Shown: one piece after another, positions 2,984-26,100 of the stretch | Layout: the number at the start of each line of letters is the position of its first letter | Position numbering within the stretch: position 1 is the first letter of the stretch | Assembly (NCBI GenBank): GCA_033675265.1 | Contig: JAUJYZ010000186.1 | Coordinates: forward strand, 1-64,000 | Direction of reading: 5' to 3' | DNA: 64,000 bases | Origin: Actinostola sp. cb2023 | Taxonomy: Eukaryota; Cnidaria; Anthozoa; Actiniaria; Actinostolidae | The notes under the pieces: generated by a model | What the model was told of the DNA's origin: nothing | The model's input: the letters and a program-made list of their open reading frames with translations, nothing else | Databases searched by the model: none | Made by a program: the position numbers and the translations under genes

Positions 2984-4205
2984 AGCGATTCTCGGTCAAA
3001 TCACCATACCCTGACAGTCAAACGATACCAAACGACACCCTGACAGTCAAACGATACCAAACGACACCTTGACAGTCAAACGACACCAAACGACACCCTG
3101 ACAGTCAAAGGACAGCAAGCGATACCCTGACAGTCAAACCACACAAAACCACACCCCGATTGTCAAACGACACCAAACGATACCCTGACAGTCAAACGAA
3201 AAACCAAACGACACCCTGACAGTCAAGCGACACCAAACGACACCCTGACAGTCAAACGATACCAAACGACACCCTGACAGTCAAACGACACCAAACGACA
3301 CCCCAACAGTCAAACGACGACACCAAACGAGTCACCCTGATTGTCAGACGACACCAAACGACACCCTGACAGTCAAACGATACCAAACGACACCCTGATT
3401 GTCAGACGACACCAAACGACACCCTGACAGTCAAACGACACCAAACGACACCCTGACAGTCAAACGACACCAAGCGATACCCTGACAGTCAAACCACACA
3501 AAACCACCCCGATTGTCAAACGACACCAAACGATACCCTGACAGTCAAACGAAACCAAACGACACCCTGACAGTCAAACGACACCAAGCGATACCCTGAC
3601 AGTCAAACCACACAAAACCACACCCCGATTGTCAAACGACACCAAACGATACCCTGACAGTCAAACGACACCAAGCGATACCCCGACAGTCAAACCACAC
3701 AAAACCACACCCCGATTGTCAAACGACACCAAACTCCCTGATTGTCAAACGACAACAAACTCCCTGATTGTCAACCGACACCAAACGATACCCTGACAGT
3801 CAAACGACACCAAACGATACCCTGACAGTCAAACGACAACAAACGACACCCTGACAGTCAAAAGACAACAAACGATACCCTGACAGTCAAAAGACAACAA
3901 ACGATACCCTGACAGTCAAAAGACAACAAACGATACCCTGACAGTCAAACGACACCAAGCGATACCCTGACAGTCAAACCACACAAAACCACACCCCGAT
4001 TGTCAAACGACACCAAACGATACCCTGACAGTCAAACGAAACCAAACGACACCCTGACAGTCAAAAGACAACAAACGATACCCTTGAAGTCAAGCGATAG
4101 CAAATGACACCCTGATGACCAAACGACACCAAACGACACCCCAACAGTCAAACGACACCAAACGACACCCTGACAGTCAAACGACAACAAGCGACACCCT
4201 GACGG
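2984..4205. repeat. Minisatellite, about 28-bp unit (CCTGACAGTCAAACGACACC core)
   Basis: About 1.2 kb of tandem units built from CCTGACAGTCAAACGA plus CACCAAACGA, with variant sub-blocks such as CCCCGATTGTCAAACG and CACACAAAACCACA recurring as higher-order groups. It starts abruptly after unique AT-rich DNA and ends about 125 bp before the stop codon of gene B, so it lies immediately 3' of that gene or inside its 3' UTR. Confidence 0.92.
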
Positions 4206-4330: not shown

Positions 4331-4665
4331 TTATTTTCGTGTGCAACAATGTTTGGGGCAATATGCTGGACAAAACGAATTGGATGATTTACTTGAGCAG
4401 GAGCGGATACAACCCGAATAACTAGTGTCTTGTCCGGATGGGTATGGATAGGGGTAGGAGGGTGATGGGTAGGGTGATGGGTAGGGTGATGGGTAGGGTG
4501 ATGGGTAGGGTGATGGGTAGGGCGATGGGTATGGCGATGGCGATGGGTATGGTGCTGGAGACAATGCTGGTTGAGCTTGAGGTGTAATAATAAAGCTGCC
4601 TGAGCAACACGTTGGACTACACTGATCGGTACATGTGGTAAAGCACTGGGAATAACATCCACTTC
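4331..4665 (-). CDS. Gene B last exon: two minicollagen cysteine-rich domains around a Tyr-Pro-Ser-Pro repeat
   Basis: Acceptor TTCCTTCAG precedes 4665; stop TAA is at 4333-4331. CRD1 reads CYSQCFTTCTDQCSPTCC, the canonical C-x3-C-x3-C-x3-C-x3-CC spacing of minicollagens. It is followed by an Ala/Pro/Gln segment and roughly eight YPSP units (a 12-bp repeat on DNA). CRD2 keeps C-x3-C then has eight instead of three residues before C-x3-C-x3-CC. In minicollagens and NOWA these domains reshuffle disulfides to harden the capsule. The Tyr/Pro repeat replaces the collagen or polyproline rod of minicollagens. Two other frames stay open through the repeat only because its period is a multiple of three. 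Confidence 0.88.
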
Positions 4666-7600
4666 CTGAAGGAAAAAATATACAAAGATTGTCAGTTCAT
4701 AAAACAATTAGTATTTTTAGAGCTATATATGTACTTAGAGATGGTATATTATTGGGTCTCCTTAATCAAATTTCAAGTTTATTATTAAGAGTCGTGGGCA
4801 AATAAAATAAATCATCACCACTTCTACCGCCATTACACTGGATTAAACGCGCGCTCATCAAGCCTTGGAAATTGGTTGGAAATATCCAAAACCTACAAAC
4901 AGTCAAACTTGGATGTTGCTTACCGCCCTATGACCAAACTGTGCAATCTCTTTCCACGACCAAAAGATCGCAAAGATGCAAGCAGCGAAACTGACATAGT
5001 ATACAAAATCAAATGCTCAGAATGTGATTTTGTATACTATGGCCAGACAGGCAGATCAATGAAAACACGAACTTCGGAGCACAGAGGAGCCATTGCTCAC
5101 AACCACCCTAACTCAAAGATAGCACAGCACAGCAACGAAACAGGACATTCTTTTGACTTTAAAAACATTACAATTGTGGACAGAGAAAAAAAACTACCAC
5201 CAGAGGCTTTTCCTTGAAGCGTGGTTCACGGGCCAAGATGCCAAGATGCCAACGCAGGGAATGATTGCATTCAAATTTCTGAAGTCTACAAGACCATCAT
5301 GGGACTAAGAAATAAGCGCGCGCAAGGACATCAAGCGCGCGCCGCAAACGTTAAGTATTTCAAAGATCGCAACGTTTCCGATTAATACTGATGAAGGCCA
5401 TTGATTAATGGCCGAAACGTCTATATGAAAAACAGAAGTCAGAGACAAACACCAATCCTTTAATAATGTATCGTAAACCTGACTGCAACTTCAAGATATA
5501 TATTATCCAAAACCTGATTGAATAGAGTACCGAAGTGATGACGTCATAAAAATAGATTTTTCGCTTTATCAACTTTCGGCTTGGATCGTAACGTTACGAA
5601 ATTACAGTGATTTGTGGGGAGAAATTATAAATTCAACTGGCCATATCTCAGCCGCTATTTAACCGATCGAAAGTTGATAAGCGAAAACAATTATTTCGTG
5701 ACGTCACACTTCGGTACTCTATTTCCAAAATTGGAAGAGCGCGCGTGCGTTGGATTGTCCAAGGTTTGAACAGCGCGCGCTCACTATAGTAATCATAGTA
5801 GATACTCTATCATATCTCACCTCCACAAACAATATTGACACAAGCAAGAGTAGCATTAGCAGTATTGTTGTCGGCAAGATGGTTGTTATTGCTTTCGAGA
5901 TAACTTTGTAATGGCTGAGCGGGACTGGGGTCGGCCCCCGAAGGTTGGCGTAGGTACACACTGACGTAGTAACCACCGTCTGAGCCAATCCTGTGTGTCA
6001 AAGGTTCAAACGTTTTTATTTTCGACACAATATTATAAATCAAAAATACATAAACTGATAGTTAAAACAATCTGGCGCAAAACTGTTACTCACATTGATG
6101 AGTCGCCCACAAACTCCAGCGGTTTTCCTTGAAGCGCAGCCAACTCATTCATCTGTAAACGAATAATATGGAATGCTTGATATCAATAGACGTCATTTCC
6201 GGTCTCGTGAGGAATTTTCATCAGCTGATTGCTCCGCGTTTTCAATAGAATACTCTCTGCTTGACCCTCCCCCTGGATCCGCCACTGTGGCTTAACTTTT
6301 GCTTGATGAGATCGACATAACTTATTAAGCCAGGGACAAATGACTTCCCTACTAGTCCATTGTAATTATAAGGTGCATTGATTTGATTGGCTTACCTTTT
6401 GCTTGATGAGATCGACATAACTTATTAAGCCAGGGACAAATGACTTCCCTACTAGTCCATTGTAATTATAAGGTGCATTGATTTGATTGGCTTACCTTTT
6501 GCTTGATGAGATCGACATAACTTATTAAGCCAGGGACAAATGACTTCCCTACTAGTCCATTGTAATTATAAGGTGCATTGATTGGTGCGTCTTGGTGTTC
6601 GACGAGGAGTGTTATTTTGTATGTTATTGGCCCTAGATCACAAAGAAGCATCAAGAGTATCAATCCTTTGTGTAGAAAGTTGACAGGGACTAGCGCGGAT
6701 TAAACTAGTAGAGACTGATAGGGACTAGTGGTTAAACTAGTAGAGACTGACGGGGGCTAGTGGTTAAACTAGTAGAGACTGATAGGGACTAATGGTTAAA
6801 CTAGTAGAGACTGATAGGGACTAGTGGTTAAACTAGTAGAGACTGATAGGGACTAGTGGTTAAACTAGTAGAGACTGATAGGGACCAGCGGTTAAACTAG
6901 TAGAGACTGATAGGGACTAGTGGTTAAACTAGTAGAGACTGATAGGGACCAGCGGTTAAACTAGTAGAGACTGATAGGGACTAGTGGTTCAACTAGTAGA
7001 GACTGACAGGGACTAGTGGTTAAACTAGTAGAGACTGATAGGGACTAGTGGTTAAACTAGTAGAGACTGACAGGGACTAGTGGTTAAACTAGTAGAGACT
7101 GATAGGGACTAGTGGTTAAACTAGTAGAGACTGCATTGGTGCAATAACAATCAACAAGTTTGTAGAATGAAACTAGTTTGACACCGTTTAAAAAGCACTA
7201 AAATTTAGTTCAAAGGTTCATTTATTTCCACATAGTAAAATTACACGCTGTCAAAGTTTCATTCTACACACTTGTTGTTGAGAAAGTTGGTTGGCTTTTC
7301 CACTATAGTACACTGTATGATCAATAAGTCAATTGGCTTTTCTTGAACTGGAAAAAGTAATTAGCCATTTCAAAAACGAGTGAAGGACTGGGAACGAGTT
7401 TTTAGAATTAATCTAATTAAAACCCCATCACAAGAAAGAGCATATCAGAATTAGTAAGTTTACAAAGTTTCGATAGGTTTAGTTAGATATTGAACGAGTA
7501 ACAGCTTTCCAAACATCTCGAAAATTACAAAGACATGTATGTTACAGGGGACAAGCGTCCCCCGTAACCATACATTTCTTTGTAATTTTTGCAGTTGTTG

Positions 7601-10600
7601 AATGTCTGCAGTTCAGTTGCTACTTCTCCAAACCCTATCAAACTCCTGAAACTTACTAATTCTGATATGCTCTTTCTTGTGATGGGGTTCATTTCTTAAT
7701 TAGATTAATTCTAAAAACTCGTTCCCAGTCCTTCACTCGTTTTTGAAATGGCTAATTAGAGAAGGCACATTTAAACAAGTGTAAAGACATGCAAGACAAA
7801 GGCTTTATCATCAATACCTTGAACAGGCATGCGGCAAATGGCGGGAAACTCCTCAGAGCATTTCTTATCTTTCCATCCAGTTTCGTTCATTGAACTTATC
7901 ATTGTCACGCAGTTTTCTCCAAGTCCAGTTGGTTCAGTCGGAAGAAACTGGTGGAATGTGGCAGCGGTTCCATCAGTCCATTGATAACGACTTTCAGTCA
8001 GACGATCGTTGAAACCTATCCACGCCTCACCGGTGACATCAGACTTTTTACCTGTGTGAAAATGACAAAGGAAATTTATGAAACACCTCATGCGAAAGAC
8101 ACGCTGGCATGTTCTGCCCTGGTGTAACTTGAGTAGTCGGTTCATAGGGCTTGGGGAGAAGAGAAGATTGGGGAGAAGGGGAGGAGAACCCTCAGAGTCA
8201 ACATGGCCTGGCTACACAGGCCGGCAACTGAGCCGTCGTGGTGTCGATTCCCTATCCTATCGAACCGAATACGAGCCTAGCTGACAGGAGAATGGGGGAA
8301 AATTAAGCAGAACGACGTCGTTCAAGGTTGTTATTTGAGATGCAGACTCAAGGCTACCTTATTAATTATAAATATAACAACACTTGTAAATGAAAACAAA
8401 ACATGTGCACCAACCAGCTATCATGCCATTAATGAACGTGTTCTCCTCTTGTGTTTGGATGGAAGCGACAGCAGCTCCACGATTTGCACACATGGCAATT
8501 GCAGACTCCCAGCTTACGGCAACTTCATGGAAGGCGAAACAGGATCGTCCATTATTGCTGAAGCCTGGTAGACACTCTATTTTAAAACAATTAGGTTATT
8601 AGTTAATGTCGTAAATGTTCTGGTCCAACTACGTTGTTTTTATCAAGGATCCAATAATCAACTGGAGAATGATCTCCTATAGCCTGTCCCCGATACAGTT
8701 GGACGTGCTGGTTCGAATATTGGATATATAACGTTATCCGATGGATAAATCCCAGTATATGATTAAGTTAGTGCTGATATCCACTAATGTAAAAGTAAAG
8801 GGACGATATTTAGCGTCCGTTGCCCCTTCAGTCAATGACTGATCTCCCAGGAGGATGGACGGTGCTACCCCTTCCTCCACCGACCGGCATGCATTCAAGT
8901 CGCTTAACACAGAATCCGTCCATTTAAACCCCAATAAAGTATACATTTTCTGAAAGCTAAATAAATGGAGATTCCAACTAATGGTCTATTAACAAAAAGT
9001 ACATACGCGTTTTAGATATAAGTCAATATCAACGAATAGTTTTCATATAGCGTTATACGGCGAGGTCCCAGACAGCCGAATTTTATCGGAAATTCAAGAT
9101 CATTATCTCTATGCACTCTAGAGATATCAATTATCAAAACTGTGTCTCCGTTTATCAATACGTTTCCCCGTTGCTTTTTTATCTGCCGCGAAACTTTCGG
9201 TACGCTAAAAATACATTGTTCTTTACTAATCAGTTAATAACTCATGAAATCATTAAAATATCAAAAATCGGAGATACGGTTTTGAAGAATGATAATCAGA
9301 GATGAAGTCCTAAAAATCTCAGCTGAATCGAATAAAACCCGTTTGTTTAGGAGCTCAAAATAACACCCGTATTTTCGTCAATTTGCTCTTTGAGAAAAAA
9401 CCCAAAATGTTTTTCAAGGCAAGTGGCGCCTTTGCTTACATTATTATTATTATTATTACACAAGCGGCGATAATCCACCACAAATATGTGATCCAATACC
9501 TGATGACATATGAATGGCAGTCAAAAGAAGATCGCCTTACAGTTCGTAACGACGTAACACAACGAGGCAGGAAAACAAAGTTACTGCTGGCGGGAAATAC
9601 GAGGACTTTGACCGTGAGTGGTTTGGCATCGTCATCGTTATATATTTTGAGTGAGCAGTTACGATTTTTGGATACTTTCTTCGCATCTGAATCTTTGTGG
9701 AAAGTCTGTTGCGTGAGTGCTGTTGACAGCTTGCTTGTCAACATCTTTTTGCATCAAATGAAATCCAAAATTCGTTTTTTGGAAAAAATATTTTTTGGAG
9801 ATGATAGATAATATTCAATTTGATTTGATTCAAAAAAAATCAAAACCGGTGGTTTGAAAGGTTTTTGGGGAACCCTGATACCTTAAGGGTATTTAACACT
9901 GAGAGCTACACATATTATTTATCCTCTAGTTAAGGATTTGTCCACTGCATAGCACTGCCCACTTTATGCGCGTGTGAGCATCTTCCTATGTAACACGCGC
10001 AATATAAATATTAAATTATTATTATTAAATTATTATTTTTGGACAACCTGATTGTGATTCTTTGACTATTATTCTCACAAGAAATGTCTGTATTATTATT
10101 TTATAAGACTTTGTTTTGCTTTAATATTTTTATACCTTGTGAACTTCCATCGGTCACATCTAGAAAAAAAAAGATAATTGATTATAAATTGTTGATTATT
10201 TTAATTTTTAAATACGCAAAACTTAGGGAAACTCCGGGTAACATGTTTTCCCGCCAATACACCATTTCACGGTTCTGTTGAGTACCCATGAACAATGGTA
10301 CCAAGTCGTGGTTGTCCTTGTGCAAATGCCATAATTGAATGAAAGCACAAGGCCATACCTGAACTTGATACCATTGTTCGTGGCTACTGAACAGAACCGT
10401 GAAGTGGTGTATTCCAATCAGTTATATACCTGACAAAACTTTTTGTATCTTCAACCTGAGTTTTATTACAAAACTGCCAAGCTTTCGGGCTAAGCGCCCA
10501 TCTTCGTTGCGCACGAGCTTGCTTGTTTGGTGGCGTTTGTTTGTGTTCGTATACTTATAGTCGTTGTAATAAGATTTTATGCATTTAGCCCTGAAGATGG

Positions 10601-13600
10601 GCGCTTAGCCCGAAAGCTTGGCAGTTTTGTAATAAAACTAAGGTTGAAGATACAAAAAGTTTTGTCATGAATTATCCAACCTACAAACCAACATTAGATT
10701 TAGTTATATACCTGTCACAGGTGAAATATTATTTCTCGCCGACTCTAGATTATTACTCGGCGGATCGAAGTACACCACCACATAACTATCAGTACTGTTT
10801 GACAAGCTTTGCCCGATACCAATGTGTGTTGTTCCCTTCCAAACCAATCGAGCGAACTGTGCAGATTTTACAGTTACCACAGACGCAGCCCAGTCGTAGT
10901 CCTTGACAGTCATGTACCATGCTGAAACACACTTTTTTCCTTGTACAATAGCCGGTAACCCTGCGTCGACGAAGGTGCAAATGCTCAATCCGTAGCCATT
11001 TTCACTGTCATCATCATCAACAACGGACCTTGATGAACTCGGTGAGGAAAGTTTCTTCGCCTTCTTCTCAGCTGCTTGTGACATGTTTTTCTCTAGTATG
11101 ACTGGCCCTGCTCCATGTAGTAGACGTAGGGCATTGATCCCATGGAGGATTTCCTTTGCCAGATCTACATAGAAAATAATTATATCATTATGTACAAGAC
11201 GTAGGGCATTGATCCCATGGAGGATCTCCTTTGCCAGATCTACATAGAAAATAATAATCATTCAATAAACGAATGCTTAGTCACGATATTAGCCAACAGA
11301 TGAAGAGAAAATACTCGTCGGCAGCAATGCGCGGCAGCAATGCGCGCCAAAGAGAGGCTCAGTCCGAGGATGCTGAGAATCATGAGAAAAATGAAAACTG
11401 AATGAAAGCTTGGCAAAAATGTCTTTGAAAGGTTATTTCACTTTGGCATTCAAAATAGGTTCAACGAAATAATACAAATTAATATATAAAATCTTAGTAG
11501 TAAATAGTAGTATTCAAAAATTGTTTGTCTATGACTTGTTTTTATGAACTTTCTTCAGTGTCTAGGGAAGGAAGCAAGTAGTTACAGTAGGCGTTTGTGG
11601 CAAGTGTAATGAAACGCCTGTAAATCTTTCCATACACATTTAATCGATCGTTGCAAAAACATTATTGAAGCCAGATTGACTATAATTTTACCTTCAACTG
11701 GGGATATATTGGCAGGCGTGGCTATTGTTGGCCCTGTGGCGTTTAAAATCCCGCTTTCCGAGACAGGCAAAGTAGGTGTAACGACACTTGATGGCTTAGC
11801 AGATCCTGTGCTTTGTTTCGTGGGTTCAGTTGAAGGACTAGCAACCAATGAACCATGCGATACACCAGATGTAGGTTTGCTCGTTAGCATTTTGAATATT
11901 TTCACAGATGTGCCGCTTGTCGGCTTTGACGACGGTTTTTGGTTGGCCACTAATGTTTAATATAAAAAGAACAATGTCTAAACGATATTTAGAACTCGTT
12001 TGCGCGCAGGCAAAATGAAGAATGGAGTTGTTCCACCCGCGCTGTTCCATTGGTCGAGAGCTTTATTGCTGTTTGTTGGTAAAATATTTTATAGACCTCT
12101 TTAGCTTGTATGCAAATTACCCATTTCAGATCATGTGATGTAAACATGATATTCTCTGGAGAATTGTTCCTTTATATTTCTGAAATTTATTCGTCCATAT
12201 TGAAAGGACTAATTTTCCAGAGAACACCATGTTTACATCACATGATCTGAAATGGGCGATTTACATACGAAGCTAAAGAGGTCTATTGCGAATGAGTGGA
12301 ACGACTGAATTCATGACATAAAAACAGCATAAACTCGCTATCCGATGGGTCTACTTGTTTCTCATACTGACTGTCTGTAGATTTCTGTGAATGCCTTGAA
12401 AGCTGCCTGAGTTACTGTCTGACTGTCCACATAGAGTGACAAGTGACATGAGCTCCTACCAGTGATTATCGGTGGTCACACCTTGTCAAAGATAACTTAA
12501 TTCCAATTACTTACTATACCTGTAATTCCAATTTCATTTGTAGGTTTCTCACTTGTAGCGCCTTTCGTCGGTCCATGGGTCAATAATGCACCTTTCGTTG
12601 GTGATGCACCTTTCGTTGGTGATGCACTATCGGTCGATGATGCACCAGGGGTCGATGATGCGGCGCCTTTCGTCGGTGATGTTTCTATTGTCAAAAACAT
12701 CGTTTTAGTACCGTGTACATGATATTTCAAGTAGTATACAGCTATTTCAAAAAAGGTTGGTGAAGGTTTTGTTGCATGTTGCATACCAAGCCCGAAATGT
12801 ATTGTGGATCATATGTAAATAATGTCAGCATGCACATACAGACATTAGTGCATAGTGCATTTTGGGCTTTGTATTCAAGATGCAACCAAACCTTCAGCAA
12901 CCTTTTTTGAAATAGCTGTATATAGTGCTGAATTGCAAGTGTATAAATAAACGATTGATTTAAGTCCGTGAGTCTCATTTTCTGCCCGTCCTCAAATGGC
13001 AGCCAAATACTGTCCCTCGTGAGCTATCATTCAGGAAACATTCTATTGCTGGTTTTCAACCAGTTGAAAAAATCCATGAATCTCACTATTTGCCCTCAAA
13101 TGGTGGTCAAATACTGCCCTTCATCTTCACTACATAGCATTGAGATAAGAATATGGTCGAAATGCGTTTTTTTAAACATCAAAATAAACTATCTTTCAGA
13201 AATTGTTGCTTTGTATTAGTTCGTAAAGCAAGTTGATGCGTTTCTTAAAGCGTAAATATAGACTCGGAAAAATCCGAGTCCCATCCGAGTCCCATCCGAG
13301 TCCCATCCGAGTCCACTGGGAACTCATCATGGATGGGCGAGGTCTTTGATTGTATTTATGTCTCGACCATCGACTGTAGTTATTTTAACGCACGTGCTTA
13401 CTTGAATGAAATGAATGAAACAACTTTATTAATGTGTCTAGTCTTGTAGCAGTCCACAGGTAGACCACTAATCCACCGATTGGTCCCTAGAGCTCACGTG
13501 GTGTACTTCATGTTACTGTCACCAAAATGTTCGTACATCTTCCGTGAATTGCCGCCCAAACACACTAACTTTTGTACAGTTTATCGACTCGATTTAGTTT

Positions 13601-16600
13601 TTCGATTCTCTAAATATTAGCAAAACTATTTTAACTAAGGTTGATAAACGAGATTTTGCTAATATTTAGAGGATCGCACATCTAAATCGAGTCGATAAAC
13701 TGTACAAAAGTTAGTGCGCTTGTACGGCAATTCACAGACAATGTACGAACATTTTGGTGACAGTAACATGAAGTACACCACGTGAGCTCTAGGGGCCAAT
13801 CGGTGAATTGGGGACACCTAAACTAAGCTTACCTGCAATGTCTTGATGTTTAGAAATAACATTCATTGGAATTAGAGCCCTCTGTAGACCCTCGTCTTTG
13901 GAAAACCAGCACTTGCACATGGCTTCGTAAATGTCGCCATTTGCGTCTTCGACGCTGATCTGATATCAATTAACAGTGAAAACAATGAATATATATTCAT
14001 TGACTATAGACACTATCATTTAACAAATTAACTGAATTCAAGAAGATCTGAAGATCTTAAAAACCTCAGTATATCCGGTCTATGGCAAATGTTGGAAGAC
14101 TGGGTTCGAGTGTTTTGATTGGCTGAATTAGTTACAAGATTTTCGAGGTGTTTATTGGGTTCAACTTTCTTTCTCCAGCTAGCACATTGGTCTTTTAGGA
14201 AATAACGCCATATAAATAAATCATTATTATTATTATATTATTTATAATAAAAACCATTATCGGACTCTGTCATAGTGAAATTTGTAAATAGAGATACCTG
14301 TTATAGAGTAAAGTTTTTGTAGAGCAGACGTTTCGGGATGTTGGCTACATCCCTTCGTTCAGTGAAGATCGATGTTGGTCACATGTTAGTTTAGTAGCAA
14401 TCGATTGTATAGTCTGGGCAAATCAATGCAATCGACACATGTGACCAACATCGATCTTCACTGAACGAAGGGATGTAGCCAACATCCCGAAACGTCTGCT
14501 CTACAAAAAACTTTGACTCTATAACAGGTATCTCTATTTACAAAAATATAATATTATTATTGGATATAGGCTATGCAGTTTTTTAAATTGGAGATAATAT
14601 GGTCAATATTTAAAAACTGCTACGTCAATGGTAACACTCGTACCCAGTCTTCCAATGCATTTGTCACATACCTGGTATACAGCAATTTCAAAAAATGTTG
14701 AAAACTGAATACTGCATACTGAATAGTGCATTCCTAGTGCGGGCCTCGTTATTTTGAAATAAAAAGTAAATATACAGCGATTTGTTCGCCATATGGAGCT
14801 AGTATATTGTTTCTGATGGAATACACAAAAAATAAAATAAATTAGTATTATTTATATTACTTTAGACAATAAAACACAAGTCCCATAATGCATTTCGGTC
14901 TTGGAATACACTATATTCAGTATCAACGTTTTTTGAAATTGCTGTATTCAAAAGTTTATATAAAATAAGCACCTTTTTCATGTTCCACCTGTCCAGTTTT
15001 CCATTTGCAGTCTTTTTGACAGCAAAACTACTTATTTTCCCAACGTTTTGCGCGTCGATGGTAAAGGTTGACACTCTAAAAGCGAGACAACGATCGTAAT
15101 GAAATTAGATTCTGCACAAGACACGAGATTATATAAATGATACGATATTATTATAGATAATCTATATAATAATGTTGTCACTGATTAAAGTGCTTATGAA
15201 GCTTATTTTTTTATTTTGAAAATCGATTACATATGAAGTGAATAGTGGGATGTTTCAGTATTTTGTGATTTGAGCTTCGCATTTGCGAGTTATAAAGGTT
15301 TGAAATCGTGATATGCCAATTCGGTGACGGCATTTGCTATAACTTATTTATATTTTTTCAAGTAGCATTCTTTTCTGAAATAGAAAAAAAGTTTAACATC
15401 ATTTATATAAGTTGTAGAAAACTTTTTTCCAGATTAAAAAAATGTCAATGATTTGCAAAGGGGCGCTTTTGTATAATAAATGATGCCTCCTTTGACGTCA
15501 CCGAATTAGCATATCACGATTTCAAACCTTTATAACTCGCAAATGCGAAGCTCAAATCACAAAACACTGAAACATCCCACTATTCATTTCATATGTAATC
15601 AATTTTCAAAATTAAATAATAAGCTTCATAAGCACTTTAAAGTACTTAGTCACATATGTTTCGGTTCAGATACTACAACCTTCATCAGTGGTAGTCAGTT
15701 CGTCTATGTAATGAAGGTAAACGTCTGTGACTAAGTACTTTAACCAGTGACAACATTATTATACAGCTATTTCCAAAAAGGTTGGTGAAGGTTTTGTTGC
15801 ATCTTGCATACCAAGCCCGAAATGTATTGTGGATCATAGATAAATAATGTCAGCATGCACATACAGAAGCAATTATGCCTGCTTCATATTGCGAAGACAA
15901 AGTTTGGAAAAATTCCCAGAGTCCATATTGCTGTGACCTTTCGCTGACTCCATTCACATCGCACATACTGCATTTCGGGCTTGGTATGCAAGATGCAAGA
16001 TGCAACAAAACCCCTTTTTTTGAAATAGTATATTATCTTACTATGCCTGATTACAAAATCAATAATTATATATGTATATATCTATATTACGTGTTTCTCT
16101 GGAAGGCATTGATGTCCCCCTTTAGTTCTTTAAACTCCGTTGTGTGTTTATCACCAAATAGTTTCACGAATACTTTATCGCCAGGTGCAGAGCCAGCGTC
16201 CAACCCCTCACTGGTTTTAACGGTTACTTTGTATGTCGTTCTTGGAAGTGCCCTGGCACAAACTGAAATGACGGTAAGATGTATACGTTAGCATAATGGA
16301 AAAGTGGATAATTGGAAGGAGAGAAGGAGGGATGGCTGAGTGGGATTATGGAAGGAGGCAGGGAGGATCCATAGCTCCTCCCCCATTCATGCCGCTTGCT
16401 CACCAATTCATGTTTACTGTCTCCTTCGCGACATCACCCAAACATCTCCCCCAACTTCTTCCCCAAAGTCTACCCCAACTTCTCCCTCAACTTTTCCCCC
16501 AATCTACCCTTACCTCCTCCCATCCCCCACTCCCTTCCCCCTCCCATATCTCTACTCGCCAATCCATACGTTACCTCCTCCTTTCCTGCCTCCCTTTCTT

Positions 16601-17017
16601 TCCTTGGTGAAGAAGTTTAGGGAATAAGGAAGGAGATGGACGGAGGTTGGTTGGTTGGTTGGATTATTGGTCAAGTGATTTGTTAATCAAGTAGTTTCAG
16701 CGCGAGCTACGCGCTCAACTTCAGGATCACAAAGTGCGTATATAGTCGTAATTACAACGTTAGTTAGTTTTTTTTCACTCTCTACGTAATAACGTCTATA
16801 TACTCATTAATTGCATGTAACCCTGAAGATGATCACGTAACTCGAAAGCTCGATTTATTTGAGTGTTTTACTATTCGTTTTATCGATTAACAGAATGAGC
16901 TAGTGAATGTATATTTATTCAATAGTAATCTAGTAGTCTATTGTAGTGAGCGTATTTGCACATCTTACCAATAAGGAGAAAACATCCAACTAAAACAAAC
17001 AAACGCCTCCCTGTCAT
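4331..17017 (-). CDS. Gene B: NOWA-like nematocyst wall protein with N-terminal PLAT domain (13 coding exons, 807 aa)
   Basis: Coding exons in transcript order (minus strand): 17017-16969, 16262-16091, 15075-14973, 13959-13833, 12684-12520, 11949-11692, 11164-10712, 8576-8415, 8051-7818, 6632-6496, 6152-6094, 5990-5821, 4665-4331. All junctions are GT/AG and in phase; the sum is 2424 nt, exactly 807 codons plus stop. Order of domains: signal peptide (1-20), PLAT (about 21-150), Ser/Thr/Pro linker (151-291), CAP/SCP (292-442), C-type lectin (443-574), unrecognised domain (575-696), minicollagen CRD, (YPSP)n stretch, second CRD (697-807). CAP plus C-type lectin plus minicollagen CRDs is the architecture of Hydra NOWA, a disulfide-crosslinked protein of the nematocyst capsule wall; the PLAT head and only two CRDs differ from it. 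Role in capsule wall assembly is inferred from that family. The exon model has not been tested against transcripts. Confidence 0.9.
4860..5307 (+). pseudogene. Penelope-like retroelement remnant: GIY-YIG endonuclease end, frameshifted
   Basis: An open stretch encodes a GIY-YIG nuclease-like segment: VYKIKCSEC, VYYGQTGRSMKTRTSEH and SKIAQHSNETGH match the C-terminal endonuclease of Penelope-like elements. In an A-run near 5180 the frame shifts, and the expected continuation (RLFLEAWFTGQD) lies in another frame up to a stop at 5305-5307. The reverse transcriptase is absent, so this is a 5'-truncated, dead copy. It sits antisense in the last intron of gene B. A hammerhead-like hairpin follows 80 bp downstream. 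Confidence 0.8.
5388..5421 (+). ncRNA. Hammerhead-ribozyme-like motif of Penelope element
   Basis: CTGATGA is followed by one A, a perfect 7-bp stem (GGCCATT/AATGGCC) and GAAACGTC. These are the conserved core boxes of hammerhead ribozymes, which are known in Penelope-like elements. The palindromic ACGT after GAA could form helix III between two copies. The extra A between core and stem II is not canonical and may reduce activity. Confidence 0.5.
5519..5722. mobile_element. MITE-like inverted-repeat element
   Basis: Termini AGAGTACCGAAGTG at about 5526 and CACTTCGGTACTCT near 5718 are inverted, and the complementarity continues inward through TGACGTCA and the TATCAACTTTCG segment. No ORF. 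It lies in gene B's last intron. Confidence 0.7.
5821..6632 (-). CDS. Gene B exons 10-12: unrecognised about 120-aa extracellular domain
   Basis: Exons 6632-6496, 6152-6094 and 5990-5821 join in phase between the C-type lectin and the CRD exon. The product starts PITYKITLLVEHQDAPIN, has a helix-like middle (MNELAALQGKPLEFVGD), then DGGYYVSVYLRQPSG, an Asn-rich stretch and a final CVNIVC pair. I do not recognise the family. The amphipathic strand - helix - strand order could fit a small SEA- or ferredoxin-like fold, which is only a guess. Asn-x-Ser/Thr sites (NNT, NAT) suit a secreted glycoprotein. It occupies the place between lectin and CRDs where NOWA has no named domain. Confidence 0.8.
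6297..6590. repeat. Three tandem copies of an exon end plus donor site (gene B exon 10)
   Basis: A unit of about 100 bp containing the last roughly 90 coding bases of exon 10 and its donor is present three times. The copy joined to the real exon ends AAAG|GTAAGC. The middle copy keeps the same donor. The outermost reads AAAGTTAAGC, so its GT donor context is damaged. Only the first copy is needed for the reading frame; the others are cryptic. Confidence 0.85.
6680..7133. repeat. Minisatellite, 32-bp unit (CTAGTAGAGACTGATAGGGA)
   Basis: About 14 tandem copies ending in CTAGTGGTTAAA. Variants alternate GATAGGGACTAG, GACAGGGACTAG and GATAGGGACCAG, showing unequal spread of subtypes. It lies in the gene B intron between the lectin exons and exon 10. 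Confidence 0.92.
7362..7758. mobile_element. Inverted-repeat element (MITE-like), about 400 bp
   Basis: The arm starting TTAGCCATTTCAAAAACGAG at 7362 is repeated in reverse complement ending near 7758, with more than 100 bp of near-complete pairing. The central region has an internal palindrome around the motif GGACAAGCGTCCCCCG. No ORF. Confidence 0.8.
7818..8576 (-). CDS. Gene B exons 8-9: C-type lectin domain
   Basis: Exons 8576-8415 and 8051-7818. Recognisable lectin landmarks in order: first Cys pair region (ECLPGFSNNGRSC), FHEVAVSWESAIAMC, the WIGFNDR motif, YQWTDGT, EPTGLGENCV, and the closing WKDKKCSEEFPAICRM. The usual Ca-binding EPN or QPD triplet is replaced by EPT, so classical mannose or galactose binding is uncertain. 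The donor of the first exon (G|GTTGGT) is weak, but it is the only one that keeps phase and gives FINGMIAGKKSDV. The domain follows directly on CAP with no linker, as in NOWA. Confidence 0.9.
8590..10249. other. Long intron of gene B without recognisable gene
   Basis: Part of the intron between the CAP and lectin exons. Contains AT-rich unique sequence, a short ATT microsatellite near 9441, and near 9960-10030 a GCGCAATATAAATATTAAA(TTATTATT) end that resembles a SINE-type tail. A 142-codon open frame at 9383-9811 has no domain, is matched by an equally long frame on the other strand, and is not supported. Confidence 0.5.
10250..10412. mobile_element. MITE-like inverted repeat, about 160 bp
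   Basis: AATACACCATTTCACGGTTC at the left pairs with the right end GAACCGTGAAGTGGTGTATT; pairing extends about 50 bp inward with a few mismatches (ACCATTGTTC segment). No coding content. Confidence 0.8.
10431..10667. mobile_element. Inverted-repeat element with 75-bp arms carrying hammerhead-like cores
   Basis: Arms 10431-10505 and 10593-10667 are near-perfect reverse complements beginning TGACAAAACTTTTTGTATCT. Each arm ends with CTGAAGA, a GGGC/GCCC hairpin and CGAAAGC, so both strands carry a hammerhead-like CUGANGA...GAAA core facing inward. A GT-rich spacer separates them. Confidence 0.8.
10712..11164 (-). CDS. Gene B exon 7: CAP/SCP (PR-1-like) domain
   Basis: A single 453-nt exon, acceptor TTCTATGTAG, donor ACAG|GTATAT. 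CAP features: ILHGINALRLLHGAGPV (the N-terminal helix with the family's R..H), then an Ala/Lys-rich helix, an acidic loop (VVDDDDSENGYGLSIC), KKCVSAWYMTVKDYDW, FARLVWKGTTHIGIG (the family's F..vvWk.t..iGcG motif) and YVVVYFDPPSNN (the closing YxPxGN motif). The His in WKGTTHIG and the first-helix His are kept; the usual GENI is degenerate (NGYG). CAP domains are secreted cysteine-rich folds. Here it has few cysteines, as in NOWA-type proteins, so a structural role is more likely than a venom role. Confidence 0.9.
11165..11239 (-). repeat. Tandem duplication of CAP exon start with its splice acceptor
   Basis: About 75 bp covering the end of the intron and the first 50 coding bases of the CAP exon is present twice. 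Acceptors CATAGAAA..., read on the minus strand as TATGTAG|ATCTGG, occur before 11239 and before 11164. The spacing is 75 nt, a multiple of three, and the frame between them is open, so use of the upstream acceptor would add 25 residues (DLAKEILHGINALRLVHN and following). Confidence 0.85.
11692..12684 (-). CDS. Gene B exons 5-6: Ser/Thr/Pro-rich linker
   Basis: Exons 12684-12520 and 11949-11692 join PLAT to CAP. The first encodes SPTKGA-type repeats (SPTKGASPTKGA), the second a Ser/Thr/Pro/Lys-rich segment (NQKPSSKPTSGTS). Such stretches are usually O-glycosylated, extended spacers. Both exons are phase 1-1, so they can be skipped without breaking the frame. Gene A has a much longer segment of the same composition at the same place. 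Confidence 0.85.
12091..12286. mobile_element. MITE-like inverted repeat, 196 bp
   Basis: ATAGACCTCTTTAGCTTGTA at the left pairs with the right end AAGCTAAAGAGGTCTAT; arms of about 65 bp include the shared ATCACATGATCTGAAATGG segment. Located in the intron between the two linker exons. Confidence 0.85.
12733..12922. mobile_element. MITE family 1 (ends TATACAGCTATTTCAAAAAA), copy 1
   Basis: Inverted ends TATACAGCTATTTCAAAAAA and its complement, with internal GGTTGGTGAAGGTTTTGTTG. Related copies are at 14682-14946 and 15765-16031, all in gene B introns. Confidence 0.85.
13260..13310. repeat. Short tandem repeat CCGAGTCCCAT
   Basis: Four to five copies of an 11-bp unit (ATCCGAGTCCC) in the gene B intron. 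Confidence 0.8.
13474..13809. mobile_element. Long inverted-repeat element, 336 bp
   Basis: Arms of about 150 bp: CACCGATTGGTCCCTAGAGC at the left matches the complement of the right end. Internal landmarks CTAACTTTTGTACAG and GATTTAG pair likewise, so the whole element folds into one long hairpin. It ends 24 bp before the PLAT exon 13833-13959. Confidence 0.88.
13833..16262 (-). CDS. Gene B exons 2-4: PLAT/LH2 domain
   Basis: Exons 16262-16091, 15075-14973 and 13959-13833. PLAT landmarks: TTYKVTVKTSEG, GDKVFVKLFGDK (second strand), TEFKELKG, VSTFTIDAQNVGKISSFAVK, DRWNMKKISVED and the CxC end (YEAMCKCWFS). Intron phases 1-2-0-1 match the PLAT modules of genes A and C, and the middle exon is 103 nt here and in both gene A modules. 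PLAT is a beta-sandwich used for lipid or protein contact. Presence at the head of a NOWA-like protein is unusual as far as I know. Confidence 0.9.
14083..14664. mobile_element. MITE family 2 (ends TTGGAAGACTGGG), copy interrupted by another element
   Basis: Ends GGCAAATGTTGGAAGACTGG and CCAGTCTTCCAATGCATTTG are inverted. An uninterrupted relative is at 18706-18937. The copy here is split by an ATT microsatellite and the inverted-repeat element 14281-14543. Confidence 0.8.
14281..14543. mobile_element. Nested inverted-repeat element with hammerhead-like cores on both strands
   Basis: Arms start TTTGTAAATAGAGATACCTG and end in its complement. Each arm contains GAAACGTC beside a GGGATGT/ACATCCC stem and CTGAACGA, a hammerhead-like core with an insertion relative to CTGANGA (14327-14362 minus, 14461-14496 plus). 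Confidence 0.8.
14682..14946. mobile_element. MITE family 1, copy 2 (diverged)
   Basis: Ends TATACAGCAATTTCAAAAAA and AAATTGCTGTA, with GTTGAAAACTGAATACTG and its complement internally; an AT-rich stretch lies in the middle. It ends about 25 bp from PLAT exon 14973-15075. Confidence 0.75.
15168..15764. mobile_element. Inverted-repeat element, about 600 bp, with an inner hammerhead-like hairpin
   Basis: Left arm AATAATGTTGTCACTGATTA through GGTGACGGCA pairs with the right part (GACGTCACCGAATTAG through CCAGTGACAACATTATTATA). The right arm is interrupted at about 15641-15740 by a short inverted repeat (AAGTACTTAGTCACA...TGTGACTAAGTACTT) holding CTGATGA...GAAACATATG on the minus strand (15658-15688). 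Confidence 0.8.
15765..16031. mobile_element. MITE family 1, copy 3
   Basis: Begins TATACAGCTATTTCCAAAAA and ends TTTTTTTGAAATAGTATA; shares about 100 bp (ACCAAGCCCGAAATGTATTG) with copy 1 at 12733. It abuts the preceding inverted-repeat element. Confidence 0.82.
16823..16848 (+). other. Weak hammerhead-like core
   Basis: CTGAAGATGATCACGTAACTCGAAAGC has the core boxes CTGAAGA and GAAA but a poor stem II. It ends a small repeat, beginning near 16699 (GCGCGAGCTACGCGC), in the first intron of gene B. Confidence 0.35.
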
Positions 17018-20082: not shown

Positions 20083-21491
20083 CTGTAATACATCAAAGAT
20101 AGAATTTGATATTAGTATTTTATTTCATTTGTTTTCTTCATTTCATCCCATTCATTTGCTTCCCTCGTCTCCTTCGTTTTTTCGGTTGTTCGTTCCTTGT
20201 GTCCTTCCCTCTTTTTCTCTTTTCCTCTTCTCCTCGTTTCCTCTTTTCCTCTTTTCCTCTTTTCCGCGTTTCCTCTTTCTTCCTTTCTTTCTTTCCTACC
20301 TTTCTTTCCTACTGCCTTCCATCCTTTCTCAGTACTATTTGTATTTAGGTTATACTCTCGTATTCTATAGCGCTTTCATCGTGAATATTTGCGCACATAT
20401 ATTTATATATATGTGTTTACATACGGGCTCTGCGACAAAACCACAGCTGGATATGGTTTGTACATCCCAGGCACGTGATCAATTCACTGTAAGAGGGCTT
20501 TTGGAAGAATCGTTTGTCATTATTGATTACTTACCTCCATTGATAACGTTTGATGTTAAAGCAGTTTTTATCAGTCCAACATCCTTAGCTAACAAACACT
20601 TGCACATAAATTCATAAACCTTGCCTTGGGGATCGCGCACTTCTATCTGTTGACGAAAGGTTAGAACAATCTAGCTAGGACTTCTTCACAGTTTTTTGAA
20701 AATGTAGGACGCACGAAACATTTTTTTTGAAATTGGTGTATATTTGTATTCATAGTGTATAGAAAATAAGTTTCTATGCAGGCGTATGAGATGCCTCCTA
20801 CCTTTTGAATGTACCAGTCCGTTTTTGGTCCATTCACCTTTCTCTTTATAGACATGTGATCTAGTGAGTCAATGTCCTTAGCTTTGACGTCAAATACTGC
20901 TTCACTGTAAAGGAAATAAGTTTTTACCACATTTGTCAAATTTCTCGCGCGCTGATTGGATAAGAGCCATTGACGCATAGAATGACGCTCGCGCACGGAA
21001 CGAGTGCGCGCTCGAATCAGTTTTTCTTTGAAATTCCTTTTTCGTTTTGGGAGCTTTTTCCGCTTTTCTGAGTAAATATTGTTGTAAAAAAACAAATCGA
21101 ACATGGTTTTCCATTGTCTGTACTCGCTACCCTCGTTGTTCCACTTGAGTTTTGAACATTTTATGGCGTCATCCGTTGTCGATAAGAGTACAGACAATGG
21201 AAAACCATGTTCGATTTGTTAAATTCAAACCATTAAATTATTCGAGAATATTCCTGTCTAGATTTCTTTTAAATAATCGCGAAAATTAACAGCCCTGCAT
21301 GCCGAAACAATCCATGAATCAGTAGTATTTTTGAATAGTGCTATGTCTATTGTTTCATCAGTGCTATTTAGTAATTTAGTAATTAATTAATTAGTGCTAA
21401 TTATTAAGTGCCGTTTCACGGTACTCTAGCCACGAAAATAAGCGCAAGGTGTACCACATTGTTTTAGTACTATTATTTATTAGTAGTAGTA

Positions 21492-21523
<32 letters not shown>

Positions 21524-23149
21524 TACTTATATAGCGCCTATACAGGACTGTTCTAAGCGCTGACAAATAAAATATATATAATATATATAAAGGTAAATAG
21601 GACTATTGCAGCTGGTAACAACCTTACTTTTTGCCTTGGAATTTCTGGTAAATGTCTGTCAAATCCTTGAAGTCGGTTTCTTTGTCTTTACCATGGAACT
21701 GCACGAACACTTGATCGTTGGGGTTAAAGTCGTCGTTTGATATGATTTTAACTTTGTAGTCCTTCTTGAGAGCAGTTCGTTTAGTGTTCTTGACCACTGA
21801 ATAAAAGAAATTAAGTTACGGTTACCTTGTGCACACTATTATCCAATATCTTCAGACATATTAATTATTTAGGATTTGTCTCTGACTTATTAAACTTTAA
21901 GAATTATAGACGTTTCGGTCTTTGACCAAAGACCTTCATCAGTATGGAAAAACGTTGATATTTTTGCGCGCGCATATCTTGAAACTAGCAGCGCGCGCAA
22001 ATGTCAGAATTACGAAAAAGACTCTTCAGGGATCTTGACACAATCGTTCCTTGATCTTTTGTCTTTATTTGAGTACCAAGCCTCAAGAAAAAGTCTCTTG
22101 TGGTAATTTCCCTCCCTGTCCACAATATTGTCAAAATCAAACTGATGTCCACATTCATTAGCGTGTTGGGCGATTTTGAATGTAGGCTGGTTGCTTCCTA
22201 TGGCTCTCCTGTGTTCATGTATGTGTCTTTAATACCAAGGTACTACTAATAGAATTATAGTGATGATGATGGACCGAGTATGATGTTAATAGGCCCTTTG
22301 CAGTTTACAGTCACATGCCAATATATCGCTTGAATAACGAATGAACTAAGCCGAAGATCCCATGGGAACGGCTCTGCTGACTGGCAAACAAACTTTGAGA
22401 CGTTGATTGAGAAAGATCGACAATCTACTGGAGGGTGGAAAATAGCATTTCAAACAGATTTCTTTACTACTGATATCGTGTAAGATTCTTCAAATAAATA
22501 AAGCCAGATTTTTTTGCCAGTCAGTACAACCACGTGATCGTAATCCTGCAAAGGGCCTATTATGGCAGATGGGCATCGCAAACTGATATAAATAAGACTA
22601 TGTTTATAAATCAATTACGTTACAATGAAAAAGTAGAATATAAAGTAGCAATTTCTGCTAATAAAGTTGAATATCATCTAAAAAAATGGGAAAAACTATC
22701 AAAAGCTCTAACTTGAAGAATTTTCAATAGCCCAGTGATGGCCTCCTCAATATGTGTTTTCCTTTTTTCTTGTAGTTTTATTAGTGTTTTGATTTGTATA
22801 TTATCTCAATGTTGTAGCTATATTGATAAGTTTGTAACAACTCATTGTAAAATTTACAAAATAATTGAATAAAACTGGGGGGGGGGGGGGGGGGGAGACT
22901 AGCAAAATAAATGCCTAAAGGAGAGGAATTTATTTCTGAACCTGTTCCACACACAACTGATTCTCAATTCAGAGATCGGCACTTTTTGCGCAATTGAACA
23001 AGCTCGTAAAATGAACTGGTGTTTTCATATCCTTTTTAGAATTTAGCATCGAACCCAATCAAAGTCACTGAAATTAATTCATTGTTATTATTATTATCAT
23101 GATCATTATTATCATCATTCAGTATTATAACTATTATTATTGTTATTAC

Positions 23150-23180
<31 letters not shown>

Positions 23181-26100
23181 AAGCATCTTTGATAGTAATT
23201 TTATAATGAAACATTGCGACAGTAGATTTATAATATTAAAAGACGACGTTTCGACGTTTGCTAACGTCATTTTGACTTGATAATGACGTTAGCAAACGTC
23301 GAAACGTCGTCTTTTTTTAATATTATGTTTCATTATAAAATTATTATTATTATTATAATTAATATTAGTATTGATATTATTACCTTCCGCTAATGCTGAT
23401 TCTGCGATTTTGCCCAATTGCGCCAATTCTTTTGCATTAGGTGTAAGTCCAAGTACGTTAGCTAACGCAGCAAGTGAAGGTACATTAGTCGAAGAAGTAG
23501 TCGAAGGCGAGGAAGCTGAACTAGCACCACTGGTTGCACTTGCCGAACTAGAAGGTGAAGGACCCTTAGAACCTTGAGGCTTTTGACTTGGAGACACTGT
23601 TCCTTCGGATCCTGGAGATGCATTGGTCGGAGGAGTCGATCCACCACTGGTGCTACTCGTTGGGCTTTTAGAACCTCCAGGCTTTTGTCCAGAGGGTGTA
23701 GGTCCACTGGAACCACTTGTAGGACCCTCAGAGCCTTTTGGCTTTTTGCTGGGTAATTTTGTTCCCTGTGATCCAGGAGATGCATTGGTCGGCTGAGTGG
23801 AACTTGGAGCCTCACTGGGGTTTTTAATTGTGGCACCTGACGATTTAGTACCACCACTGATGCCACTTGTTGCAGATGGAGGGGTAGGACCCTTGGAGCC
23901 TTTGGGATGTTGGTTGGGTAACGCTGATCCATGAGATGGTAAAACCCCAGTGGTACTGGAAGATGTAGGTTTTACTTGTGGCTTTTGGCTGGGCGACGTT
24001 TTCCCACTAGTACTGCTTGCTCCAGACGAAGGAGAAGGGCCATTGGAACCTTTAGAATTTTGGCCGGGCGACGTTTTCCCACTAGTACTGCTTGCTCCAG
24101 GCGAAGAGGTAGGGCCTTGAGAACCTTTAGGATTTTGGCCGGGCGACGTTTTTCCAGCAGTACTGCTTGCTCCAGGCGAAGAGGTAGGGCCTTGAGAACC
24201 TTTAGGATTTTGGCCGGGCGACGTTTTTCCAGCAGTACTGCTTGCTCCAGGCGAAGAGGTAGGGCCTTGAGAACCTTTAGGATTTTGGCCGGGCGACGTT
24301 TTTCCAGCAGTACTGCTTGCTCCAGGCGAAGAGGTAGGGCCTTGAGAACCTTTAGGATTTTGGCCGGGCGACGTTTTCCCACTAGTACTGCTTGCTCCAG
24401 ACGAAGGAGAAGGGCCTTGAGATCCTTTAGGCTTTTGGCTGGGAGATACTGTTCCCTCTGATGCAGAAGGTGCATTGGTCGAAGAACCTTTACCCTTGTT
24501 GGGCATTTCGCTTGGGAATGGCGAGACACTGGGCGATGATGTTGGACTCTTATTTCCTCCATTCACAGACGCCCCTGGAGCATTAGAGGGAGCGGCACTA
24601 GGCGAACCAGTGGAGCTTGTTGTTTTCCTCGGGTTTATGACATTTTGTGGGGTGTTCGTGACTTCAAGTCCTTTCTCCTTTGACAATACACATTTACACA
24701 AGAATTCGTAGGTGGTACCGTGTTGGTCGTGCACGGTTATCTAGTGAACAAAATGAAAAATGTGTCCTAAAAACTATATTTAATATTTTCGATTCTTAAT
24801 TTCCAGCTTGTACCTTGTGGACATGCCAATCCAGTTTTGGTCCATGTACCTCTCTTTTTATTTTCAACTGTTTTAAAGGACCTACATCTTTTGCTGATAC
24901 GGTAAAGGATGCTTCACTGGGTAGAAAATAACACAGGTAGACTATTTATTCCAGTATTTTCTTCTTCTGTAGTATTAGTATTTTATGCCAATATTTACTA
25001 ATATCCATATAGTACATCAACATTTTCCTTCATCCATCTATCGAACATTAACTGGCTATAGATCAAGCATTTGTTTATCGATTTTCTAGCCTTCCTTTCC
25101 AGCTACGCAGGCTCTCGATTTTCCAATCCTTCAATGTGTCCATTGATTATTTTAATCATTCAATCATAAACAATCCACGTATTGATTCCATCAATCCCGT
25201 AATTTCTGGTTTATTTCCTTTCAAACTTACTCATCCATTCACCAGCCCACCCAGTCAATCCGTCCAAAACTACCCGCCCATCCATCCATCCATCCATCCA
25301 TCCATCCATCCATCCATCCATCCATCCATCCATCCATCCATCCATCCATCCATCCATCCATCCATCCATCCAACAATCCACACATTGATTCCATCAATCC
25401 GTAGTAAAGTCTCTGTGTTTTTTCTTTCTTTCAAACTTCAGTACTCGTCCATTCACCAGCCCACCCAGTCAATCTCCAAACCTGCCCACCCATCATCCAT
25501 CCATCCATTCATCCATTCATTCATTCATCCATTCATTCATTCATTCATTCATTCATCCATCCATTCATTCATTCATTCATTCATTCATTTATCCATCCAT
25601 CCATCCATTCATTCATTCATCCATCCATTCATTCATTCATTCATTCATCCACACACCAACTGTGTTCTCTAGGATTAACCACAGTAATGTTGATACTGCA
25701 TGGAAATTAGGATTTACAAATCAGTCATCTTACCTTTTTCCTATAAATTTATTTTGAATTCCTTCCAATTCTTTATGCTGTGTCTCTTTATGCTGTGTCT
25801 CTCCGTAAAACGCAACAAAAACTTTGTCATCGGGATTAAGATCATCGTTTGAATTGATTGTCACTTGGTACGTTACAAGCTGGGCATTGACTTGCGAAAC
25901 TACAAAAAAAGATGAATGGAAAATGATCAATGGACGTTGGAATAAGAACAATGGTTTTGGTATTTGAGAAGTCTTTTTCTTTATATAGAAATCATGGATG
26001 AGATGACTTGAGATATTAATAATCCCTCGGGCCATAATTGGAAAACTTATGTTCCTCATGTGATATACAGTCAAAGTCATTAAAGGAGCACTCTCACAGG

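Follow-up and report, generated by a model that had tools for sequence, protein, structure and literature searches.

A predicted 14-exon gene of the sea anemone Actinostola sp. cb2023 that likely encodes a NOWA-like protein with a PLAT domain at its head

Does a single sea anemone gene join a PLAT domain to the CAP, C-type lectin and cysteine-rich domains (CRDs) known from the nematocyst protein NOWA, and if so, what would its product do? The question is raised by a locus on a contig of Actinostola sp. cb2023 (JAUJYZ010000186.1), of which a stretch of 64,000 nucleotides, hereafter called the window, was analysed. Positions 17017-4331 of its minus strand contain 14 exons with GT-AG borders, which are joined in one frame and specify a predicted product of 815 residues. 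This product is composed, in order, of a signal peptide, a PLAT domain, a Ser/Thr/Pro linker, a CAP domain, a C-type lectin domain, an unnamed domain, a CX3CX3CX3CX3CC domain, a Tyr/Pro repeat, and a variant cysteine domain. We consider it rather probable that this is one gene for a likely secreted protein with a PLAT-linker-CAP-lectin-unnamed-two-CRD layout, which likely functions as a cross-linker of the NOWA type while the stinging capsule forms. The exons and the C-terminal elements are as follows.

16969..17017, minus strand: exon 1, start codon and likely signal peptide (MTGRRLFVLVGCFLLI), ends in phase 1; recovered by strict and loose signal-peptide scans
16091..16262, minus strand: exon 2, first part of PLAT, phase 1 to 2 (Pfam PLAT, residues 27-130)
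14973..15075, minus strand: exon 3, middle of PLAT, 103 nt, phase 2 to 0 (Pfam)
13833..13959, minus strand: exon 4, end of PLAT, phase 0 to 1 (Pfam)
12520..12684, minus strand: exon 5, Ser/Thr/Pro-rich linker, phase 1 to 1 (composition)
11692..11949, minus strand: exon 6, Ser/Thr/Pro-rich linker, phase 1 to 1 (composition)
10712..11164, minus strand: exon 7, whole CAP domain in a single exon, phase 1 to 1 (Pfam, open frame)
10136..10159, minus strand: exon 8, 24 nt, VTDGSSQE, between CAP and lectin, phase 1 to 1 (alignment with Actinia)
8415..8576, minus strand: exon 9, first half of the C-type lectin, phase 1 to 1 (Pfam)
7818..8051, minus strand: exon 10, second half of the C-type lectin, carrying EPT and WKD (Pfam)
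6496..6632, minus strand: exon 11, start of the unnamed domain (alignment; no Pfam match)
6094..6152, minus strand: exon 12, middle of the unnamed domain (alignment)
5821..5990, minus strand: exon 13, end of the unnamed domain (alignment)
4331..4665, minus strand: exon 14, two cysteine-rich domains, Tyr/Pro repeat and stop codon
4604..4657, minus strand: CRD1, CYSQCFTTCTDQCSPTCC, CX3CX3CX3CX3CC, exact minicollagen-type pattern
4459..4552, minus strand: Tyr-Pro-Ser-Pro repeat with a 12-bp unit
4343..4411, minus strand: CRD2, CIRSCSSKSSNSFCPAYCPKHCC, variant spacing CX3CX8CX3CX3CC

The initial annotation had proposed 13 exons with 12 junctions in matching phases and a product of 807 aa. The exon chain is indeed present, with GT-AG borders and in frame; the numbers were revised to 14 exons, 13 junctions and 815 aa, the 24-nt exon 8 having been overlooked. 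A model lacking exon 8 is also in frame and yields the 807 aa given there. Exon 8 is probably genuine, because its VTDGSSQE aligns with LSDGTSQE in the matching stretch of a relative from Actinia tenebrosa (4/8 identical and 8/8 positive positions); in the Nematostella vectensis relative, just 2/8 positions are identical and 4/8 positive. Nine of the 13 introns are in phase 1, and the remaining four lie inside the PLAT domain or inside the unnamed domain. Nine junctions (2/3, 3/4, and 7/8 to 13/14) were counted as supported, since both flanks are domain sequence that aligns with the Actinia and/or Nematostella protein. The signal-peptide junction (1/2) and those of the linker (4/5, 5/6 and 6/7) were left uncounted because their flanks are leader or low-complexity sequence, with 2 to 7 of 15 residues identical to Actinia. 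Alignment also fails to place junction 6/7, where the PLAT and CAP halves meet and one flank is linker sequence.

Local repeats were also seen within and near the gene. At 11115-11262, a 75-bp tandem duplication copies the acceptor of the CAP exon (exon 7), placing a second acceptor 75 bp upstream; both acceptors are in frame, and an isoform with 25 additional residues is therefore possible. Three 100-bp copies (99% matches) at 6288-6583 extend across the end of exon 11 and its donor, with the GT gone in the third copy, and represent either a recent duplication or an assembly artefact. Intron 13 contains an ORF on the plus strand (4789-5214) with a weak GIY-YIG match (E 0.015, below the cut-off), which is possibly a remnant of a Penelope-like element. 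Shortly past the stop codon, approximately 24 copies of a 29-bp repeat occupy 3515-4203. No AATAAA is present on the minus strand between 2505 and 4335, where ATTAAA occurs at 2831 and 2666.

In a protein search that scored 7991 candidates, five proteins reached E <= 0.001, and every one came from one of two sea anemones: one protein of A. tenebrosa (P0001, named mucin-5AC-like in its source) and four isoforms of N. vectensis LOC116609466. A further search gave eight matches among 6578 candidates, six from Actinia or Nematostella and two being vertebrate lectin-domain proteins. The only match of an alignment-based search with the C-terminal parts was a protein with a lectin domain; this search did not recover Nematostella isoforms of suitable length that the first search had yielded, so that it is uninformative on absence. 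Hydra NOWA was not among the matches of these searches (7991 and 6578 candidates and the C-terminal alignment search). PLAT, CAP and Lectin_C are all present by Pfam in P0001 and in the Nematostella protein P0002, and the three proteins align collinearly from the signal peptide to the last CRD, both CRDs included, with 47% (Actinia) and 38% (Nematostella) identity to the window protein. The nine-part order is found along the full chain in all three sequences, a count that is partly circular in that the grouping was defined from the same three. The relatives thus share the order from the signal peptide to the second CRD, including a Pro-rich spacer between the CRDs; Actinia has a much longer linker and Nematostella one that varies among isoforms, and only in the window protein is the spacer a (YPSP)n repeat. 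Across five Nematostella isoforms, the fifth of which came from the search of 6578 candidates, residues 1-267 and the final 620 residues are identical, and all variation consists of inserts in the linker; therefore, PLAT and CAP reside on the same predicted products in that species. A single gene in which PLAT precedes a body of CAP, C-type lectin and CRDs thus has support from homology, through the predicted proteins of two other anemones. The fusion is already in the databases, in unnamed predicted proteins of Actinia and Nematostella. On the strength of these alignments, the PLAT fusion is real and not unique to this species.

The PLAT domain was assigned to residues 27-130 with an E value of 7.5e-11 (43.2 bits; curated cut-off, 23). 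It is preceded by the leader of exon 1, which is hydrophobic by a simple count of hydrophobic residues, and the product is likely secreted. The closest solved structure by sequence is 5-lipoxygenase (PDB match, E 1e-5), whose PLAT/LH2 domain belongs to the same family. We take W13, F14, W75 and L76 to be the membrane-insertion positions of 5-lipoxygenase. The window protein has L, D, G and K there (one of four hydrophobic), the Actinia protein V, N, G and P, and the Nematostella protein W, Y, G and P. Because of the L, D, G, K reading, insertion into a bilayer is unlikely in this species; it is less excluded in Nematostella. In contrast to its role in 5-lipoxygenase, the domain is here the predicted extracellular head of a structural protein, and the insertion residues are mostly lost. 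PLAT had been suggested to add lipid or protein docking; with one of four insertion positions hydrophobic, the lipid half of this suggestion is weak, and a protein partner is considered more likely. Ser, Thr and Pro account for 66 of the 145 linker residues (46%), compared with 63% in Actinia and 53% in Nematostella, and the whole protein has eight N-glycosylation motifs. The linker may form a glycosylated stalk.

The CAP (SCP) domain (PF00188) spans residues 300-424 (E 1e-8; 36.5 bits; curated cut-off, 21.1). The four positions compared, which we take to be the tetrad of GAPR-1, read S, Y, T and Q, so that all four residues are lost. Lectin_C (PF00059) was assigned to residues 471-578 (E 4.3e-17; 63.2 bits; curated cut-off, 22.6); here, EPT and WKD replace the EPN and WND of sugar-binding relatives. 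Canonical calcium-dependent sugar binding appears doubtful, because the Asn of EPN and that of WND are both missing, as they are in the Actinia and Nematostella proteins (3/3 proteins). No Pfam family matches the unnamed domain (residues 583-704), even at E 10, in the window protein or in either relative; its best PDB profile match is a ribosomal protein (E 0.27). A structure model of the whole chain had a mean pLDDT of 33 and was too poor for use; a SEA-like fold for the unnamed domain, which rested solely on the strand-helix order in that model, was set aside.

The CRD pattern of minicollagens is CX3CX3CX3CX3CC, with a proline at position 11 described as conserved (PMC4863159, in its account of the pattern). 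The six-cysteine codon pattern of CRD1 occurs three times in the window (at 4657-4604 and twice in GTT-type repeats near 37.8 kb) and in none of 100 shuffles. Position 11, counted from the first Cys, is D, N and S in the three proteins. The disulfide fold of CRD1 cannot be assumed from the cysteine pattern, because the proline is missing in all three. Against PDB, the minicollagen match of CRD1 was not significant (E 6.6), and CRD2 gave no minicollagen match. In all, two CRDs are present, one canonical and one with non-canonical spacing, compared with eight in Hydra NOWA.

According to the account of NOWA in PMC10014300, the Hydra protein is a C-type lectin with eight CRDs, through which it oligomerizes, and a lectin-carbohydrate zipper has been proposed for it. 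It was first regarded as a wall protein and was re-defined in 2023 as a late tube component that aids invagination; under knock-down, nests caught in early invagination made up 18% instead of 5.2% (PMC10014300). The label 'nematocyst wall' that had been attached to the present gene is outdated in the light of this re-assignment to the tube. NOWA has a CAP domain and has been called medusozoan-specific (PMC3627010, in its remarks on this protein), and elsewhere it is described as seemingly restricted to Hydra (PMC4195985). Reports from anthozoans include NVE17236, a highly derived Nematostella homolog that is cnidocyte-specific by in situ hybridization (PMC6161364), four Nematostella NOWAs whose expression varies with the cnidocyte type (PMC12549020), and transcripts in the coral Galaxea (PMC7430897). 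NOWA-type genes expressed in the cnidocytes of a sea anemone are thus on record (PMC6161364, PMC12549020). CAP (SCP) and C-type lectin domains are common to Hydra NOWA and the window protein (PMC10014300, PMC3627010, PMC4863159); at the C-terminus, the former has eight CRDs of the minicollagen type and the latter one canonical and one variant CRD, and no PLAT appears in the cited descriptions of the former; this is a comparison of descriptions, not of sequences. In the accessible text of the literature on NOWA, nematocysts, minicollagens and PLAT, no PLAT domain is described for NOWA, and the tables or supplements of PMC12549020 may mention PLAT. The accessible portions of PMC2687796, PMC9205923 and PMC11193195 contain nothing on PLAT in NOWA; the PLAT of PMC8846589 is that of polycystin 1, and the 'plat' of PMC6599738 is the script plat.pl. 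Judged by domain content, the gene is close to NOWA and likely represents a NOWA-like variant.

By analogy with NOWA, the protein likely cross-links the capsule or tube during its formation, anchored by disulfides and equipped with an extra head. Secretion would bring it into the post-Golgi capsule vesicle, where disulfide bonds would link its C-terminal CRDs to one another and to minicollagens. Its CAP, lectin and unnamed domains would bind to the tube or matrix and have no enzymatic role. The PLAT head, set apart by a mucin-like stalk, would engage a partner, for which a protein is a better candidate than a lipid bilayer. The key residues of the CAP domain, of calcium-sugar binding and of membrane insertion are mostly lost; therefore, the cases for lipid docking and for canonical lectin activity are weakened.

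The product might instead be a general secreted mucin-like lectin of mucus or mesoglea and not a nematocyst protein. We regard this as unlikely, even though it would fit the Ser/Thr/Pro-rich linkers of all three proteins, the source name of the closest relative (P0001, mucin-5AC-like) and the departure of CRD1 from the proline rule of minicollagen CRDs. The combination of CAP, C-type lectin and the exact CX3CX3CX3CX3CC pattern is the one described for NOWA in PMC10014300, PMC3627010 and PMC4863159, and the mucin name, probably misleading, would be explained by the low-complexity linker. A venom-type protein released on discharge is decidedly less probable. The PLAT/LH2 protein NEP-15 and CAP proteins were detected in the discharged nematocyst secretion of Nematostella (PMC3627010, Table 1), but the NEP CAP proteins are described there as short, with a CAP domain only, and the CRDs, to judge from NOWA and the minicollagens, would make the present protein disulfide-linked and insoluble.

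The remaining alternative concerns the gene itself. Between the PLAT and CAP exons, the strict scan detected no signal-peptide exon, and the loose scan gave four poor rows, including an in-frame ATG at 11261; both scans recovered exon 1. That there are two genes, one for a short secreted protein of PLAT and Ser/Pro linker and another for a CAP-lectin-CRD protein starting near the CAP exon, is very improbable: the low-complexity flanks of junctions 4/5 to 6/7, the position of ATG 11261 just upstream of the CAP exon, and a neighbouring paralog with PLAT and linker in a window that holds no further CAP or lectin match would all accommodate it, but the predicted proteins of Actinia and Nematostella carry this fusion with an identical order of parts, the five Nematostella isoforms vary in the linker alone, and the leader from ATG 11261 (MIIIFYVDLAKEIL...) forms no convincing signal peptide, unlike exon 1.

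With the single-gene reading retained, the paralog bears on the origin of the PLAT head. It lies upstream of the studied gene on the same strand (28078-20535) and contains the following elements.

28030..28078, minus strand: candidate signal-peptide exon of the paralog, MSDRRMSILIGCLLFV, 49 nt, phase 1; one of 16 rows of the loose scan, picked for its likeness to exon 1
23384..25899, minus strand: PLAT 1 of the paralog, exons 25899-25734, 24916-24814 and 24740-23384 (Pfam E 3.1e-10)
20535..21796, minus strand: PLAT 2 of the paralog, exons 21796-21628, 20904-20802 and 20646-20535 (Pfam E 9.3e-9)

The strict scan found no signal-peptide exon for the paralog near 28030..28078. Exon 24740-23384 continues into a Ser/Pro/Gly-rich linker, and scans within the window revealed no CAP, lectin or CRD in the paralog. 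Both of its PLAT domains show the exon structure of the studied gene, namely three exons, the middle one of 103 nt, with phases 1-2-0-1; from these matching phases, we infer that both belong to one gene. The modules behave as phase 1-1 cassettes: all inter-module introns are in phase 1, and a PLAT cassette could therefore be added or duplicated without breaking the frame. In a tree of six PLAT sequences, the two paralog domains cluster (support, 98), and the Nematostella PLAT groups with a PLAT encoded on the plus strand of the window (support, 96), the remainder being unresolved (43). The simplest reading is a single gain of PLAT before these anemones split, but replacement of the domain or a second gain in one lineage may have occurred, since the Nematostella domain groups with a different PLAT of the window.

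A bolder proposal, which we put forward tentatively and hold to be unlikely in its entirety, is that of an anemone NOWA with a docking head of its own, in which a PLAT cassette, shuffled through phase-1 introns and recopied next door, fastens a network of disulfide-linked lectin to one particular surface of the tube as it grows. If so, the PLAT-headed NOWA would be the anthozoan answer to the eight-CRD NOWA of Hydra. A conserved form in anemones, PLAT-headed and with just two CRDs, would help to show which parts of NOWA are ancestral, and Nematostella LOC116609466 offers a concrete gene for studying tube assembly and invagination.

Elsewhere in the window, matches to PLAT, F5/8 type C, Laminin_G_3 and TSP_1 are distributed along the plus strand at 34699-57821, several of them below the Pfam cut-offs when taken exon by exon, and possibly belong to one large matrix-like gene. 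A protein with thrombospondin and F5/8C domains, NVE5730, is reported as cnidocyte-specific in Nematostella (PMC6161364). The same region includes a satellite-like tract (43780-48608, plus strand) in which all three plus-strand frames are open for >1300 codons, with an extreme GC skew at 44-48 kb.
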